A stretch of DNA of 54,131 nt, taken from positions 1-54,131 of the forward strand of contig JAGRGH010000044.1 of NCBI GenBank assembly GCA_020445605.1, given 5' to 3'. The notes under the pieces are model-generated. The model worked only from the letters and a program-made list of their open reading frames with translations, did not search any database and was not told the DNA's origin. Numbering within the stretch: position 1 is the stretch's first letter; every line of letters starts with the position of its first letter. The DNA is from Chromatiales bacterium (GTDB taxonomy: Bacteria > Pseudomonadota > Gammaproteobacteria > JAGRGH01). Below are positions 27,423 to 34,439 of this stretch, piece after piece. A program made the translations under genes and the position numbers.

Positions 27423-28964
27423 ATGGGTAGCGCCTATATCGACCGGATTCTGCGTGCGCGCGTCTACGACGTCGCGACGGAAACACCACTGGAACTCGCG
27501 TCGCGACTGTCCCGGCGGCTCGGCGCACGCGTGTGGTTCAAGCGCGAGGACCTGCAGCCGGTGTTCTCATTCAAGCTGCGCGGTGCGTACAACAAGATTG
27601 TGTCCTTGTCTGCAGAGCGTCGCAAAGCCGGGGTGGTGGCAGCCTCGGCCGGTAATCACGCCCAGGGCGTGGCGCTCGCCGCCCAGCGGCTCGGTGTCGC
27701 GGCCACGATCGTAATGCCGGTGACCACGCCGAGCATCAAGGTCGAGGCCGTGCGATCCTACGGCGCGCGCGTCGAGCTGCACGGCGATGGTTATGACGAG
27801 GCCTATGCGCATGCCGTCGCGATGGCGCAAGACAACGGTGCCGAGTTCATCCATCCGTTCGATGACCCAGACGTCATCGCAGGTCAGGGCACTGTCGCGA
27901 TGGAGATTCTGCGTCAGCATCCCGATCCGATCGACGCTGTCTACGTACCCATCGGCGGCGGCGGGCTGATCTCGGGCGTCGCCGAATTCATCAAGTATGT
28001 GCACCCTTCAACCCGTGTCATCGGCGTCGAGCCGGACGATGCACCCAGCATGTACCGGGCACTGAAGGCGAAGCGTCGTGTGCGGCTGAGCGAGGTGGGG
28101 CTTTTCGCCGATGGTGCGGCCGTACGACAGGTCGGGGCTGAAACGCTCAAGATCTGCCGCCGGCTCGTCGACGAGGTGGTGCTGGTTTCAACCGACGAGA
28201 TCTGTGCGGCGATCAAGGATGTCTTCGAGGACACCCGCTCGATTGCCGAGCCCGCCGGGGCGCTGTCGGTTGCCGGATTGAAGAAGCACCTGGGAAAACG
28301 CGCCGACGGTGGCAACTACGTTGCAATCGTGAGCGGCGCGAACATCAACTTCGATCGTTTGCGCCATGTCGCCGAGCGCGCGGAAGTCGGTGAACAGCGC
28401 GAGTTTTTGCTGGCGGTGACCATTCCCGAAGAACCGGGCAGCTTTCTGCAGTTCTGCAAGATTCTCGGCAAACGGCGGATCACCGAGTTCAACTATCGAT
28501 ATTCAGGACCGCAGTCGGCTCAGGTTTTCGTGGGCGTGGAGATCTCGCGCAGTTCGTCCGAACGGGTCGAAATGATCGAGCGTTTGCGTGCCCGCGGTCT
28601 GGCCGTGACGGACATGACCGATAACGAGTTGGCAAAGCTGCATATCCGCTACATGGTTGGCGGTCGTTCGGACGAGGTGCGTGACGAATCGATATTCAAA
28701 CTGATGTTTCCGGAACGCCCCGGCGCGTTGCTGCAGTTTCTCTCGCATATCGGCACGCGCTGGAACATCAGCCTGTTTCACTATCGCAACCACGGTGCCG
28801 CGTATGGACGCGTTCTGATCGGTTTGCAGCTGTCCACCGCCGAGCGGCGGGAATTTCTCGCGGCTGTGCGCGAGGCGGGCTATTCCGTGGATGACGAGAC
28901 CGAAAATCCCGCCTACCGTCTGTTTGTATCGACCCGCGGAGAGTCTGAACGGTCAGACGGGTGA
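27423..28964 (+). CDS. ilvA: Threonine ammonia-lyase, biosynthetic
   Basis: This 513-residue PLP enzyme deaminates threonine to 2-oxobutanoate, the first step to isoleucine. The catalytic domain has FKREDLQPVFSFKLRGAYNK with the PLP lysine at Lys51, AASAGNHAQGVALAA, and the glycine loop VPIGGGGLISGVA. The C-terminal part holds two ACT-like regulatory units (FLLAVTIPEEPGSFLQFCKI near residue 330 and FKLMFPERPGALLQFLSHIG near 430). This marks the long, isoleucine-inhibited form. rpiA is divergent, as in Pseudomonas. Confidence 0.97.
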   Translation: MGSAYIDRILRARVYDVATETPLELASRLSRRLGARVWFKREDLQPVFSFKLRGAYNKIVSLSAERRKAGVVAASAGNHAQGVALAAQRLGVAATIVMPVTTPSIKVEAVRSYGARVELHGDGYDEAYAHAVAMAQDNGAEFIHPFDDPDVIAGQGTVAMEILRQHPDPIDAVYVPIGGGGLISGVAEFIKYVHPSTRVIGVEPDDAPSMYRALKAKRRVRLSEVGLFADGAAVRQVGAETLKICRRLVDEVVLVSTDEICAAIKDVFEDTRSIAEPAGALSVAGLKKHLGKRADGGNYVAIVSGANINFDRLRHVAERAEVGEQREFLLAVTIPEEPGSFLQFCKILGKRRITEFNYRYSGPQSAQVFVGVEISRSSSERVEMIERLRARGLAVTDMTDNELAKLHIRYMVGGRSDEVRDESIFKLMFPERPGALLQFLSHIGTRWNISLFHYRNHGAAYGRVLIGLQLSTAERREFLAAVREAGYSVDDETENPAYRLFVSTRGESERSDG

Positions 28965-29092: not shown

Positions 29093-29533
29093 CTATGCCA
29101 TCGCCGGCGCCGCAGGAGCGGCTTCGGGGGCCGCGGCCATGGCCTTCTTGCGCGGGCGAACCTTGCGGGTTACGCGCCCTGCGCCCTTCTTTCTACCGGC
29201 CTTCTTCTTGGCGGTGCCTTTCTTGCGTCCCGCCTTCTTCTTCGTGGCGGACTTCTTACGTCCAGCCTTTTTCTTTGGCGCTGCCTTCTTGCGGCTGGCC
29301 TTTTTACGTCCGGCCTTTTTCTTTGGCGCTGCTTTTTTACGGCTGGCTTTTTTACGCCCGGCCTTTTTCTTTGGTGCGGCTTTTTTGCGTCCGGCCTTTT
29401 TCTTGGTCGCCGCTTTTTTGCGGGTGGCTTTCTTTCGCGTTCCCTTCTTGGCGGCCGCTTTCTTCTTGCGGGCGCCTGCCTTCTTCTTCGGTGCCGCCTT
29501 CTTTTTGCTGGCGGCGCGTTTCTTGACTGCCAT
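29093..29533 (-). CDS. Histone H1-like Lys/Ala-rich repeat protein (AlgP-like)
   Basis: This 146-residue, extremely basic protein consists mostly of Lys, Ala, Arg and Gly. It contains tandem 16-residue units of the form KKAAPKKKAGRKKASR (two near-exact and further degenerate copies, about residues 45-110) and a C-terminal Ala/Pro tail (EAAPAAPAMA). It resembles eukaryotic H1 tails and bacterial AlgP/HctB-like proteins that bind DNA or RNA. The ATG at 29533 has GGAGGT 7 nt upstream. A matching promoter and terminator frame the gene as a single unit. The repeat number is likely to vary between strains by slippage. The target is inferred, not shown. Confidence 0.85.
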   Translation of the reverse strand: MAVKKRAASKKKAAPKKKAGARKKKAAAKKGTRKKATRKKAATKKKAGRKKAAPKKKAGRKKASRKKAAPKKKAGRKKASRKKAAPKKKAGRKKSATKKKAGRKKGTAKKKAGRKKGAGRVTRKVRPRKKAMAAAPEAAPAAPAMA

Positions 29534-29564
29534 CTGTATACCTCCGCGCGGTGTTTCAGCAGTT

Positions 29565-29584
29565 ACAACAGCATGCGCTGTTGT
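29565..29584 (-). promoter_or_regulatory. Palindrome at the start of the H1-like transcript
   Basis: ACAACAGC-ATGC-GCTGTTGT, an 8-bp inverted repeat, falls at about +2 to +21 of the predicted transcript. It could be an operator or an RNA hairpin in the leader. Confidence 0.4.
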
Positions 29585-29592
29585 CATCGCCA

Positions 29593-29620
29593 AAACTAGC
29601 TAACCACACAGAAATGTCAA
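29593..29620 (-). promoter_or_regulatory. Putative promoter of the H1-like gene
   Basis: On the minus strand a consensus TTGACA (29620-29615), a 16-bp spacer and TAGTTT (29598-29593) predict a start near 29586 and a leader of about 53 nt. The rest of 29621-29866 shows no further gene. Confidence 0.6.
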
Positions 29621-30505: not shown

Positions 30506-30520
30506 GGTCGGTGGGATGGC

Positions 30521-30698
30521 ATTCCCCGCGTGTGCCGTATCGAATCCTTACCCTTGAACCGAAGGTTCAAGTGGGACGCGACGGCGGTGTTTCGGGCTTC
30601 CCGCGGGAGCGGGCATGCACGCCTGCACCGCGCGAAACATCCCTGGGTAAGTCATACGCTCAAGGGGATTACGGGCCGATACGAACACCACAGGGAAT
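30521..30698 (-). ncRNA. ssrS: 6S RNA
   Basis: On the minus strand the 178-nt segment begins ATTCCCTGTGGTGTTCG and ends CACGCGGGGAAT; these ends pair as the closing stem. The conserved middle is present: CCCTTGAGC, GTGCATGCCCGC in the region opposite the central bubble, GAAGCCCGAAACACCG, and the 3' arm ACTTGAACC-TTCG-GGTTCAAG hairpin with GGGTAAGG. Length matches E. coli 6S (about 183 nt). Its place between zapA and the 5-FCL gene is the known location. It sequesters sigma-70 RNA polymerase in stationary phase. Exact ends are estimated from the pairing; the promoter (30699-30760) is not clear. Confidence 0.92.
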
Positions 30699-30838
30699 GC
30701 CGTGACTGCATTGGAGCACAACTGCGGCATGACTGGCCAGCGCACTGCGTGCGCCGTTGCGGGATACAGGGGCGGGGAATGTGGCGACGTTGCGTGGGTG
30801 GCCCGAGCACGCCCGCGCATTGTGACGTGTGACCGTGG

Positions 30839-31153
30839 CTACAGTTCGAGCTGGTTGGTGTCGGTCAGTGCGGTTTCGACTCGTTCGCGAAGGGAACGGA
30901 TTCGCGTGCCGACCGCATTGTTCAGGGTGCGGCTGCCGGCCTCGCCCTGAAGAAGTTCGTGGGCGATGTTCAGTGCGGCCATCACTGCAATGCGTTCGCT
31001 GCCGATGACCTTGCCGCTGGCGCGAATCTCGCGCATGCGCTGGTCGAGATACTGCGCGGACCGACGCAGGGCCTCGGTCTCGTCGCGCTGGCAGCTGACG
31101 CGGTAGTCCTTGTCCAGGATCGCCACGCTGACCGAGTCGCCGTCGCTGCTCAT
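30839..31153 (-). CDS. zapA: Cell division protein ZapA
   Basis: This 104-residue ZapA stabilises FtsZ filament bundles at mid-cell. It has VSVAILDKDYRVSC at the start and DETEALRRSAQYLDQRMREIRAS. The coiled-coil half (GSERIAVMAALNIAHELL, then the helix RTLNNAVGTRIRSLRERVETAL) follows. Its start overlaps the stop of the zapB-like gene (ATGA). 6S RNA and 5-FCL lie downstream, the common gammaproteobacterial order. Confidence 0.95.
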   Translation of the reverse strand: MSSDGDSVSVAILDKDYRVSCQRDETEALRRSAQYLDQRMREIRASGKVIGSERIAVMAALNIAHELLQGEAGSRTLNNAVGTRIRSLRERVETALTDTNQLEL

Positions 31154-31383
31154 GAACTGCTTTCCATCGCACGCAGCCGGGTGATCATGCCTTCGACACG
31201 GCGCCGGGCCTCTTCGGTTTTTTCGATCAGCCGAGCGCGTTCCGCCATCAACTCGTCGTGGCGCGAGCGCAGTGTGCGGTTGTCCGACTTCAGCGTCGAA
31301 CAGGTGCGGATCAGATCCTCGACGCGGGTTTCCAGCGCGCGGAGTTCGCCGTCGGCGGAGGAGTCAGTTGAACTGCTAGGCAT
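31150..31383 (-). CDS. ZapB-like coiled-coil protein (TIGR02449 type)
   Basis: This 77-residue protein consists almost entirely of a heptad-rich helix (LRALETRVEDLIRTCSTLKS, RTLRSRHDELMAERARLIEK and EEARRRVEGMITRLRAM) after a short Ser-rich N-terminus. Proteins of this type are encoded immediately before zapA in many gammaproteobacteria and are thought to act in cell division. The ATG at 31383 starts MPSSST; an earlier in-frame start at 31419 would add 12 residues. No strong ribosome binding site is seen for either. Confidence 0.8.
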   Translation of the reverse strand: MPSSSTDSSADGELRALETRVEDLIRTCSTLKSDNRTLRSRHDELMAERARLIEKTEEARRRVEGMITRLRAMESSS

Positions 31384-31403
31384 GGCGCTAATAGTAGGCA
31401 GCC

Positions 31404-31581
31404 GCCCGGGATCGGTCAATTTGTGCGGCCACGGAACTTTTCTCCCAGCCCCCAGTCAGACCTCTCGTGCGTGCGTAAAGGGCCGTTTCCCCTCCCTGGA
31501 CGGCCCGGCGCCATCGGTCTTACCCCTGCCGAATGGCGCGATTTGACCCTCGCGGCGACCCCCTGGCCGCGAGGGTTTTTT
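31404..31581 (+). ncRNA. Candidate structured small RNA with intrinsic terminator
   Basis: No reading frame is convincing here, but the plus strand shows three successive stems: GGCCGT/ACGGCC (31481-31486 with 31500-31505), GCGCCAT plus CGG with CCG plus ATGGCGC (31508-31517 with 31529-31539, one bulged A), and the terminator (31547-31575 plus T6). The terminator points away from both flanking minus-strand genes, so it implies a plus-strand transcript. A possible promoter, TTGAAC (31368-31373), 18 bp, TAGTAG (31392-31397), would start it near 31404. It matches no RNA family I know. Confidence 0.5.
31547..31581 (+). terminator. Strong plus-strand intrinsic terminator
   Basis: CCCTCGCGGC (31547-31556) pairs perfectly with GCCGCGAGGG (31566-31575), followed by six T. 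The opposite orientation lacks a T-run. It lies 19 nt outside the stop of the minus-strand DUF937 gene. Confidence 0.92.
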
Positions 31582-31599
31582 GTTGCCTGGGCGATCCGG

Positions 31600-32157
31600 C
31601 TACCGGCCGAAGAACTTCCCCGCCATGCCCAGCAGATCATCGGCAATCGAGCCATCGCCGTCGGCGTCGAGGAACGAGGTCAGCAGTCCGCCACCGCCCT
31701 GTTTCGACTGACCGCCGAGAAGTCCATCGAGCGGTCCGCTCGCGCCGGATTGCTTGCCCAGCGCGCCCATGGCGGCTGCTGCAAGCATGGGCAGCATCTT
31801 CTTCAGGATGCCGGCGTCGATGCCGGTATTGCTGGCGGCCTGGCTCGCCACGGCGCGACTGACGTCCTTGCTGCCGAAGATGTGGCCAAGGATGCCGTTG
31901 CCGTCCTGCACCGTCTCCTTGCGGTCGAATGCACGGGCGTCTTCCAGATAGCGCTCGTGACCGCCGTTGCGGATTGCGCCGAGCAGTGCATCAAGTCCGC
32001 CGCTGTTTTCGGCGTTGCGTCGCAGGCCCTTGGACAGCGCAGGCACCAGTGCCTCCGCCGCCTGCTGTGCCCGCGCCGGGTCCAGTCCGACCTGGCCGCC
32101 GATGCGGTTCAGAAGGTCGCCACCCTGGGCCTTGATCAAGGTATCGAGAATTCCCAT
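31600..32157 (-). CDS. DUF937 (YidB-like) protein
   Basis: This 185-residue DUF937 protein begins MGILDTLIKAQGGDLLNRIG and contains QQAAEALVPALSKGLRRNAE. HIFGSKDVSRAVASQAASNTG, the helical DUF937 repeat, comes next, then KKMLPMLAAAAMGALGKQ. The end has a calcium-like DADGDGSIADDLLGMAGKFF loop. No signal peptide or membrane helix is clear. Function is unknown. It is a single-gene unit between btuB and the candidate small RNA. Confidence 0.85.
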   Translation of the reverse strand: MGILDTLIKAQGGDLLNRIGGQVGLDPARAQQAAEALVPALSKGLRRNAENSGGLDALLGAIRNGGHERYLEDARAFDRKETVQDGNGILGHIFGSKDVSRAVASQAASNTGIDAGILKKMLPMLAAAAMGALGKQSGASGPLDGLLGGQSKQGGGGLLTSFLDADGDGSIADDLLGMAGKFFGR

Positions 32158-32246: not shown

Positions 32247-34073
32247 TTACAGCTGGCTGTCTGAATCGACCCCCGAACCGAGCCGATAGCGCAGCGTGAC
32301 CCACATCGTACGGTCCTGGCTGTTGAAGCCATCGGCGGTTTGGTAGGCGCGGTCGGTCAGGTTTTCGACCCGTGCCTCGATGCTCGCGCCCGGTGCGAAC
32401 CGCCAGCGTGCCGCGAGGTCTGCGCGTCCATAGCCGGCGATCTGCGCGTCCGAGAAGTCAGAATCGAAACGATCCGATTGCGCGAGCGCATCGAGCCGTA
32501 CATCGAACGCGGGCTGCACGAACGCGGCGCTCAGCACGCCACCGAGCTCGGCGCGCCGCGCGAGGTCGCGCCCGAGCGTCTCGTTGCGCGGGCGTTGCCA
32601 CTGCGCCTCGGCGGCGAGCCGCCACGGGCCGCTCGCAAGCGACCAGCGTCCCTGCACGCCACGAATGCGCGCGCGATCGATGTTTTCGTTGCGTCCGGGG
32701 ATCGGACCGAGAAAACCGTCCGGATCCTCGAAGTTGATGAGGTCGCGAATCCGCGTATCGAACAGCGCCAGTGATGCCTGCTGTCCGCCGGAGCGCCACT
32801 TGAGTCCAACTTCGGCGCTGCGCGAGCGTTCCGGCGCGAGATCCGGATTGCCGCCGAAACCGAAGCGGTCGAGGCCATCGGGCGCGCGGAATGCCGTACC
32901 GGCGCTCGCGTAGAGATCGAGCTGCTCGCTCACCCGGAACCGGTAGGACGCGCTCCAGACGGTGTGTGTCCCCGCGCTTTCGTGGTCATGCAGCCGCAAG
33001 CCCGCAATGAAGCGGTGCCGGCCGATGCTGATGTCATCCTGCACGAACAGCTCGCGCACATCGGTGCGCTCCTCGTAGCCGCTGCCGAACACGAGCGACC
33101 CCACATCCTCGCGCGACAGCGTGAGACCAGCCGTGATCAGGTGCGCGCCGTGACGCAGATCGTTCTGCCAGTCCAGCGCATGGCGGCGTGTGTGTGCGTA
33201 GTCGTCGCTCTGGTTCTGATCGATGCGTTCGACGAAACGGCTGAGCTTCAGCGTCGAGGTCAGATGCTCGCCCAGATACGCGCGTCCCGAAAGGATCTGT
33301 GCGCTGTTGACGAAGTCCTGGTCCAGTGGAGTCAGAAAGAAATCCAGGTACTCGGTGTTGCCGTCCGCGCGCCAGTGCGTGAAGGCGAACTCCGACATCG
33401 CCCCGGACCAGCCCGCGGAGAGAAACGCCGTGTCACGTTCGTAGCCACGGTCCAGATCGGACTCGACACGCGATGGAAATCCATCGGTGCGGGTCCGTTC
33501 GAGCATCGCGGTGCCCCACCATGGACCTTCGCGCCCGGTCAGTACACCGCCCAGGGCTTGCTCGTCATCGCCGCCCGCGGTCGCGAACACCTCGCCCGAG
33601 ACGCCGCGCGCGCGCGGCCGTTTGGGCACGAGATTGATCGCGCCACCGATCGCCTCGGAGCCGTAGAGCGTCGATGCCGGCCCTTCGACGATCTCGACCC
33701 GGTCGATCCATCCCGTTGCAATGTTCTGAATTGCCGCGATGCCGATGGTGCCGGGGTTGATCGGCACGCCGTCGATCATCAACAGCGTGTGGTTGCTGTC
33801 CGTGCCGCGGATGAAGGTCGATACGGGCTGGCCGGGGCCGCCGTTGCCCCCGATTTCCACGCCGACGTTGAACGGCAGCAACTGGGCGAGATCGCGCGGC
33901 TGACGCGAGGCGATCGCATCCGTATCGATGACGATGGTCTGGCCCGGCAGATCGGCGACCGACTGTACCGTGCGCGTGGGGGTGACGACGATCGCTTCGT
34001 CCAGCGCCTGCGCGCAGGGCGCAACACAGACGGCCAGCACGAACGCCAGCGGCAGGGAGTGGTTCTCGGACAT
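32247..34073 (-). CDS. btuB: TonB-dependent vitamin B12 receptor
   Basis: This 608-residue outer-membrane receptor has a signal peptide (MSENHSLPLAFVLAVCVAPCAQA) and a TonB box at the mature start (DEAIVVTPTRT). The plug domain has LLPFNVGVEIGGNGGPGQPV, FIRGTDSNHTLLMIDGVPIN and GSEAIGGAINLVPK, and a 22-strand barrel follows. The C-terminus ends with MWVTLRYRLGSG and a short polar tail, so the usual terminal aromatic is displaced. Overall it is BtuB-like, and the cobalamin riboswitch in its leader makes the corrinoid assignment strong. The ATG at 34073 gives the signal peptide; an upstream in-frame ATG would extend into the leader. Confidence 0.93.
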   Translation of the reverse strand: MSENHSLPLAFVLAVCVAPCAQALDEAIVVTPTRTVQSVADLPGQTIVIDTDAIASRQPRDLAQLLPFNVGVEIGGNGGPGQPVSTFIRGTDSNHTLLMIDGVPINPGTIGIAAIQNIATGWIDRVEIVEGPASTLYGSEAIGGAINLVPKRPRARGVSGEVFATAGGDDEQALGGVLTGREGPWWGTAMLERTRTDGFPSRVESDLDRGYERDTAFLSAGWSGAMSEFAFTHWRADGNTEYLDFFLTPLDQDFVNSAQILSGRAYLGEHLTSTLKLSRFVERIDQNQSDDYAHTRRHALDWQNDLRHGAHLITAGLTLSREDVGSLVFGSGYEERTDVRELFVQDDISIGRHRFIAGLRLHDHESAGTHTVWSASYRFRVSEQLDLYASAGTAFRAPDGLDRFGFGGNPDLAPERSRSAEVGLKWRSGGQQASLALFDTRIRDLINFEDPDGFLGPIPGRNENIDRARIRGVQGRWSLASGPWRLAAEAQWQRPRNETLGRDLARRAELGGVLSAAFVQPAFDVRLDALAQSDRFDSDFSDAQIAGYGRADLAARWRFAPGASIEARVENLTDRAYQTADGFNSQDRTMWVTLRYRLGSGVDSDSQL

Positions 34074-34171
34074 CTTCGGCGCCTCGCAGTGGATACATAC
34101 GCGGCGCGCGAAAACAGGACGGACGGGTGGCACCCGTGACCGACCTGTGCCGCCCGCCGCGACGCGATCAG

Positions 34172-34403
34172 GGGCTTCAGGCCGGTCTCCGGGCTCGCAG
34201 GCGGCACGTGATCGCGCGGATCACATGCCCGGGCCGAACCGCCTTCCCGGGTCGCAACCCAGTGGCGTGTTGACGTTCGGACCCTGTGCCTGCCTACCGT
34301 TGCGGGGGCAGCGCCGGAATTGCCGCGACGAGGTTCATTCTCGCCCGGCGCACCGGCTTCCCGATTCTCCGCAACGCCAGAGCGTTGCGGCACCTGAAGC
34401 GGG
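34172..34403 (-). promoter_or_regulatory. Cobalamin riboswitch upstream of btuB
   Basis: On the minus strand the leader holds the cobalamin aptamer landmarks in order: AGGTGCCG near the 5' end, GAATCGGGAAGCCGGTGCG, the GCTGCCCCCGCAACGGTA core, GCCACTGG...CCCGGGAAGGCGG (B12 box) and AGCCCGGAGACCGGCC at the 3' end. The aptamer ends about 100 nt before the btuB ATG, leaving room for an expression platform that would block translation or cause termination on B12 binding. Confidence 0.93.
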
Positions 34404-34410
34404 GCCGGCA

Positions 34411-34439
34411 ATATAGATGGCCGCTTTCGCTGCCGTCAA
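34411..34439 (-). promoter_or_regulatory. btuB promoter
   Basis: TTGACG (34439-34434), a 17-bp spacer and TATATT (34416-34411) on the minus strand place the transcript start near 34404, exactly at the 5' edge of the riboswitch. Confidence 0.8.

Follow-up and report, generated by a model that had tools for sequence, protein, structure and literature searches.

The window analyzed here, a stretch of 54,131 nt from a Chromatiales bacterium, carries a strong intrinsic terminator on the plus strand opposite the zapB-zapA-6S operon, and the question is what transcript this terminator could end. An earlier note on this DNA had proposed a novel small RNA beginning near 31404, with a perfect 10-bp stem, T6, and two more stems upstream, and had suggested that it could be linked to 6S/zapA regulation because it shares a divergent promoter area with the operon. 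The nearest plus-strand gene upstream of the hairpins is ilvA, which ends at 28964; no plus-strand gene lies close enough to require a terminator at 31546-31581. The identity of the operon as zapB-zapA-6S also holds, with the zapB-like gene scoring just below the Pfam cut-off (Table 1).

Table 1. Features of the small RNA locus and its neighborhood (positions in the window).
Feature	Position	Strand	Description
Predicted transcript	31466..31582	+	~116 nt; ends predicted from the promoter (5') and the T-run (3')
Sigma-E (RpoE/AlgU)-type promoter	31433..31460	+	-35 GGAACTT 31433-31439, 15-nt spacer, -10 GTCAGA 31455-31460
Stem-loop 1	31480..31506	+	GGGCCGTTT(CCCCTCCCT)GGACGGCCC; CTCCCT core almost invariant among relatives
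Stem-loop 2	31508..31539	+	7+3 bp; ACCCC in loop
Stem-loop 3 and intrinsic terminator	31546..31581	+	10-bp stem with an added A-T pair; loop GACCCCCTG; T6
zapB promoter, sigma-70-like	31391..31419	-	TTGACC-17-TACTAT, 9/12 matches; ~0.6 such sites by chance per 4 kb
zapB-like gene	31150..31383	-	Pfam ZapB 30.9 bits (cut-off 31.5)
zapA	30839..31153	-	Pfam ZapA 88.7 bits
6S RNA	30519..30699	-	Rfam RF00013 82.6 bits
DUF937 gene	31600..32157	-	Convergent, 3' of the terminator; Pfam PF06078 106.6 bits

As read from the plus strand, the perfect 10-bp stem is formed by CCCTCGCGGC and GCCGCGAGGG (31547-31556/31566-31575), encloses the 9-nt loop GACCCCCTG, and is followed directly by T6 (31576-31581). 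Together with the A-T pair it spans 31546-31576 and is the last of three stems, the other two lying at 31480-31506 and 31508-31539. The helix of stem-loop 1 has 7 bp (31480-31486/31500-31506), with two further inner pairs possible, and the helix of stem-loop 2 has 7+3 bp (31508-31517/31529-31539), as the note had described; a C-run is present in each of the three loops. The fold of 31470-31582 has an energy of -58.2 kcal/mol, compared to -41.9 +/- 3.4 kcal/mol in dinucleotide shuffles (z = -4.80), and none of the 200 shuffles folds equally well, whereas about the same stretch of the opposite (minus) strand folds far more weakly (z = -2.05). The automated terminator scan has no entry for the terminator at 31546-31581, because the tool is limited to 8-nt loops.

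The most telling feature of the locus, absent from the earlier note, is a sigma-E-type promoter upstream of the stems. Its sequence, GGAACTT-N15-GTCAGA, has the classic sigma-E/AlgU promoter form. We scored sigma-E matches over 12 positions and used 2020 dinucleotide-shuffled upstream regions as the control. The promoter of the window copy scores 12/12, a score reached in 0/2020 shuffles, and a score of at least 10/12 is found for 79 of 100 other copies (69 of 90 loci) compared to 1.6% of the shuffles. It is the only site on either strand of the window that scores above 10, and one of only three occurrences of the strict pattern in the 3.36-Mb genome, the other two being no obvious promoters. 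The distance from the promoter to stem-loop 1 is 19 nt in the window copy and 19-79 nt among relatives (median 25). The promoters of zapB and the small RNA are divergent, with 13 bases between their -35 elements, so that the divergent promoter area described before is indeed present. The same genome encodes RpoE (G000:C49:64308-64871; 325 bits against a cut-off of 236); a scan of the rpoE locus itself for sigma-E sites found none above 9/12, and the sigma-E consensus of this host may differ. On the basis of the promoter sequence, the small RNA is predicted to depend on sigma-E, and its transcription would start near 31466, which makes the start at 31404 too early.

We scanned the candidate stretch with Rfam at a permissive setting (E<=10). 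The best match is anti-hemB (RF02837; 37.9 bits, E 2.8e-7), which covers the whole model (1-81) and stays below the gathering score of 49.5. Matches to sX13 (RF02232; 33.8 bits, gathering score 50 missed), alpha-r14 (ar14, RF02344; 31.2 bits, far under 58.8), and alpha-r7 (ar7, RF02342; 27.3 bits, far under 60) fall on the same stretch of the plus strand, and none of the four reaches its gathering threshold. C-rich loops are common to these four small RNAs. We also built covariance models of our own, all from copies of other genomes with the window copy excluded. The first model (R1, 40 copies) scores 37.9 bits on the window copy, and its next best match scores 16.4. The second model (R2, 18 copies) has a structure set by hand, because loop lengths differ between copies and an alignment of 40 of them with MAFFT/RNAalifold brought out little of stem-loops 1 and 2. 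R2 matches the window copy over 31480-31585 with 43.0 bits; the E value is 6.7e-10 for the window and 4.2e-8 for the whole genome (3.36 Mb), in which the next best match scores 30.2 bits. This weaker match (C3:83726-83803; also L032 1501-1576 and L159 3727-3804) combines a C-containing hairpin with a strong terminator, lacks stem-loop 2, and has no sigma-E promoter (6/12); it may be another small RNA, and we rejected it as a second copy on account of its promoter score of only 6/12 and its having one hairpin fewer.

At E<=1e-5, R2 matches 178 of the 369 sampled genomes of the class. In a sample of the phylum, 28 of 398 genomes match, 27 of them from the same class and 1 from outside it, the 398 counting both groups together. 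The curated Rfam models pass in only 5 of 20 loci of the R2 type, and these five are among the top scorers; many copies are therefore unannotated. A search of the 369 class genomes with RF02837 was positive in 203 genomes at E<=0.01, 20 of them above the cut-off, and the matches at E<=0.01 were rejected as a census, with 4 of 14 control genomes also positive.

The covariation set comprised 100 R2 matches from 83 loci. Two-sided changes are found in all 24 pairs of these 100 matched copies; 93.0% of the pairing cells can pair, compared to 76.4% in shuffled and 33-52% in slid alignments, and the covariation score is 0.484, compared to 0.180 after shuffling and no more than 0.093 after sliding, the alignment being fitted to the structure, a bias in its favor. 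Of 101 sequences, 99 could be parsed into the hairpins, the exceptions being L211 and L212, in which the parse broke down at stem-loop 1. The parse was set aside as proof, as stem-loop 1 had been chosen to hold the C-run, which it does in 99/99 by construction; the pair counts from the parse carry the same construction bias and were set aside too. Among the parsed sequences, the window copy included, CCC is found in loop 2 in 75/99 and in loop 3 in 73/99. A short 5' hairpin (AGCGCT...GGCGCT type) recurs between the promoter and stem-loop 1 in relatives, for example in L052, L160, and L182; this hairpin of many relatives is absent from the window copy. Tandem copies of the C-rich RNA occur in L191, L196, L201, L197, and L180 (mostly polA/engB loci of other genomes), with two to five R2 matches each, and many of them have their own sigma-E-type promoter. 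In silico, the promoter, the terminator, the covariance match, and the conserved architecture strongly support the dedicated plus-strand small RNA gene that had been proposed.

The location of the relatives bears on whether this gene has anything to do with zapB. We inspected 90 loci with 100 copies, all drawn from the best RF02837 matches, namely 30 loci and 60 further places down to E 6.2e-7, with second places per genome partly taken. PolA and/or engB adjoin 76 of the 90 loci (both genes in 43, only polA in 14, and only engB, also named yihA, in 19), and the commonest layout is polA followed by the RNA on the same strand and a convergent engB. The remaining 14 loci, in which neither gene was detected, comprise 3 with a cytochrome c4-like gene as neighbor, 1 behind rpiA, and 10 unassigned ones. 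The copy behind rpiA (L171 2468-2574) follows this gene directly instead of polA and has a sigma-E-type promoter, and is thus another relocated copy. Neither zapA nor zapB is found in the flanks of any of the 90 loci. The window copy itself is not at the usual polA/engB position, which at 76/90 is not universal and was not taken as defining.

To see the zapB side of the comparison, we used 80 ilvA loci of named genomes, of which 17 contain zapA and zapB. In 16 of these 17, ygfB is divergent from zapB, and the 17th stops at a contig edge; an R2 match at the zapB position is found in none of these 17 loci of other genomes. In the genome studied here, the small RNA is joined to zapB where the relatives have ygfB. 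Its polA ends at C3:2871, a UPF0149 (YgfB family) gene (106.6 bits) starts ~90 bases further on, and no R2 match lies between the two. Both junctions that a single inversion would leave, if it broke at ygfB|zapB and polA|RNA, are hence present in this genome, and such an event would have carried the small RNA beside zapB. The genome's engB lies elsewhere (C32:190750), with no R2 match beside it. One inversion leaves the separation from engB, and the DUF937 gene after the RNA, unexplained, and we do not claim a perfect single-inversion history. There is no close relative among the compared genomes, all of which belong to the same class only: at the DNA level, 56 genomes of the class yielded nothing but short matches at chance level, and an ilvA-based protein scan of genome contigs gave nothing above 66% identity. 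Because zapA or zapB adjoins none of the 90 related loci and the RNA is found in none of the 17 zapA-zapB loci, the zapB neighborhood looks like a by-product of the rearrangement.

The RNAs that the window copy resembles are partly characterized. In Xanthomonas, sX13 is described as a 115-nt, Hfq-independent RNA downstream of polA, with three stable stems and apical C-rich loops, that represses mRNAs bearing G-rich motifs near the start codon, is expressed constitutively, and is confined to Xanthomonadaceae (PMC3771888). The window copy shares the three stems with C-rich loops; sX13 lies downstream of polA, whereas the window copy lies beside zapB. ErsA of P. aeruginosa (132 nt) is described as a sigma-22-dependent RNA of envelope stress that represses oprD and algC (PMC7565897, PMC5819304), and its gene is placed between polA and engB (PMC8575079). 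Its locus is like that of the relatives, and its sigma-22/AlgU dependence matches the promoter sequence of the window copy, but the window copy is not at polA-engB, and the likeness drawn here is one of promoter type and, for the relatives, of locus. Anti-hemB is given as an entry for Burkholderia (PMC3521395) and as the expressed RNA ncS04 in B. cenocepacia (PMC5688073); it has the same layout of three hairpins, C-rich loops, and terminator at a different location. One Nitrotoga locus (L113) has an R2 match flanked by engB and by a gene that, judged by its sequence, is hemB-like. The alpha-r14 and alpha-r7 RNAs of Alphaproteobacteria have C-rich-loop hairpins in common with the window copy, and in the sample of the phylum, R2 reached beyond the class in a single genome only. 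SPA0122 is tabulated with engB and Spot42 (PMC3349714).

According to its annotation, E. coli has Spot 42 (spf) in the polA-yihA(engB) interval, the same interval that the relatives of the window RNA use elsewhere; R2 is silent on this E. coli locus, and the window stretch has no Rfam match to Spot 42. MicA, RybB, and VrrA are sigma-E RNAs, and they repress envelope mRNAs upon sigma-E induction. The window RNA would work alike, by analogy, and the stretch has no Rfam match to any of the three even at E<=10. The window copy belongs to the R2-defined group both by its covariance match (43.0 bits) and by its promoter (12/12). It is an unannotated, relocated member of the ErsA/sX13/anti-hemB kind and not a new kind, so "novel" is right as far as annotation and position go and wrong as to kind, to which the sub-threshold Rfam matches already point.

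We consider, with a probability of about 0.78, that the locus encodes a trans-acting sigma-E-type small RNA of ~116 nt whose C-rich loops act on G-rich ribosome-binding sites, and that it is the counterpart of the polA-engB RNA moved by an inversion. The proposed mechanism rests on analogy to ErsA and sX13. Envelope stress would set RpoE free, and an RpoE/AlgU-type holoenzyme would transcribe the small RNA from ~31466 to the terminator at 31546-31581. The three hairpins would then expose their C-rich loops, chiefly CCCCUCCCU of stem-loop 1, and the C-runs would reduce the translation of envelope-related and other mRNAs by pairing with their G-rich ribosome-binding sites (AGGGAGG). The inversion with breakpoints polA|RNA and ygfB|zapB would have moved the RNA beside zapB, and the genes that the RNA regulates are probably those of the cell envelope and not the adjoining cell-division operon. 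In a crude target search, AGGGAGG-N4-11-ATG gave 12 matches in the genome compared to 6 for a reversed control pattern; 7 of the 12 precede long frames, including those of signal peptidase II, FlhC, and exported-looking proteins. These putative targets are a weak lead, not evidence. The few target matches, the sub-threshold Rfam scores, the missing 5' hairpin, the distant engB, and the rpoE locus with no site above 9/12 count against this explanation, and so does the reported constitutive expression of sX13 for induction by sigma-E.

The alternatives differ in what they make of the zapB neighborhood and of the hairpins. With the -35 elements only 13 bases apart, the RNA or its promoter could act in cis on the zapB-zapA-6S-fau operon, through promoter competition or a link to 6S control, and any DUF937 transcripts that continued in the direction of zapB would run antisense to it. 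However, the related loci are never beside zapA or zapB (0/90), zapA-zapB loci never have an R2 match (0/17), and the conserved C-rich loops and the sigma-E promoter are independent of the zapB neighborhood; we regard this reading as unlikely, and of the regulatory link to 6S/zapA only the adjacency of divergent promoters is left. Just as unlikely is a decayed remnant, a moved gene that looks intact and now has neither expression nor function. Its score of 43.0 bits, lower than those of most relatives, the missing 5' hairpin, and the lost neighbors would fit decay, but its promoter is perfect (12/12), and all its stems are intact though their sequences differ from those of the relatives, as would be expected under ongoing selection for structure.

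A terminator with GC-rich intergenic hairpins and no RNA gene, for example as a stop for stray plus-strand transcription, would need no promoter, and GC-rich DNA folds readily. Against this, the fold surpasses all 200 shuffles (z = -4.80), the three-hairpin model matches with E 4.2e-8 genome-wide, and a sigma-E-type promoter stands at the position found in relatives, which makes it very improbable. The least probable reading is a protein-coding or dual-function RNA in the manner of E. coli Spot 42, whose gene is annotated with the small protein SpfP; no plausible frame is seen within 31466-31582, the plus-strand frames on the list are antisense to the DUF937 gene, through which they pass, and the Spot 42 locus has no R2 match.

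The trans-acting small RNA also suggests a wider reading, which we offer tentatively and at somewhat less than even odds. A single ancestral RNA, controlled by sigma-E and bearing three C-rich loops, may have held the polA-engB interval across Gammaproteobacteria (in the GTDB sense, with the former Betaproteobacteria included), and ErsA, sX13, and anti-hemB would be its names in different lineages. It would serve as a general envelope-stress brake on translation outside the enterics, where Spot 42 fills the interval. Within this reading, the window copy keeps its promoter and loops after the inversion, and selection would therefore act on the RNA and not on the locus. The sigma-E promoters (79/100) and the matches in 178/369 genomes suggest that the RNAs which bear separate names in Pseudomonas, Xanthomonas, and Burkholderia may be a single regulator that responds to a single trigger, a point that outweighs the addition of a single gene. 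In the literature searched, with most subscription journals outside its scope, ErsA, sX13, and anti-hemB were not found described as one sigma-E-promoted family.

Two further features were observed near the locus. A cobalamin riboswitch (92.4 bits) lies at 34163-34412 of the minus strand, upstream of a TonB-dependent receptor gene (32247-34133). Past the 6S-fau region, 29093-29593 of the minus strand contains a long lysine/alanine-rich, repeat-like frame that by eye resembles a histone-H1-like DNA-binding protein.
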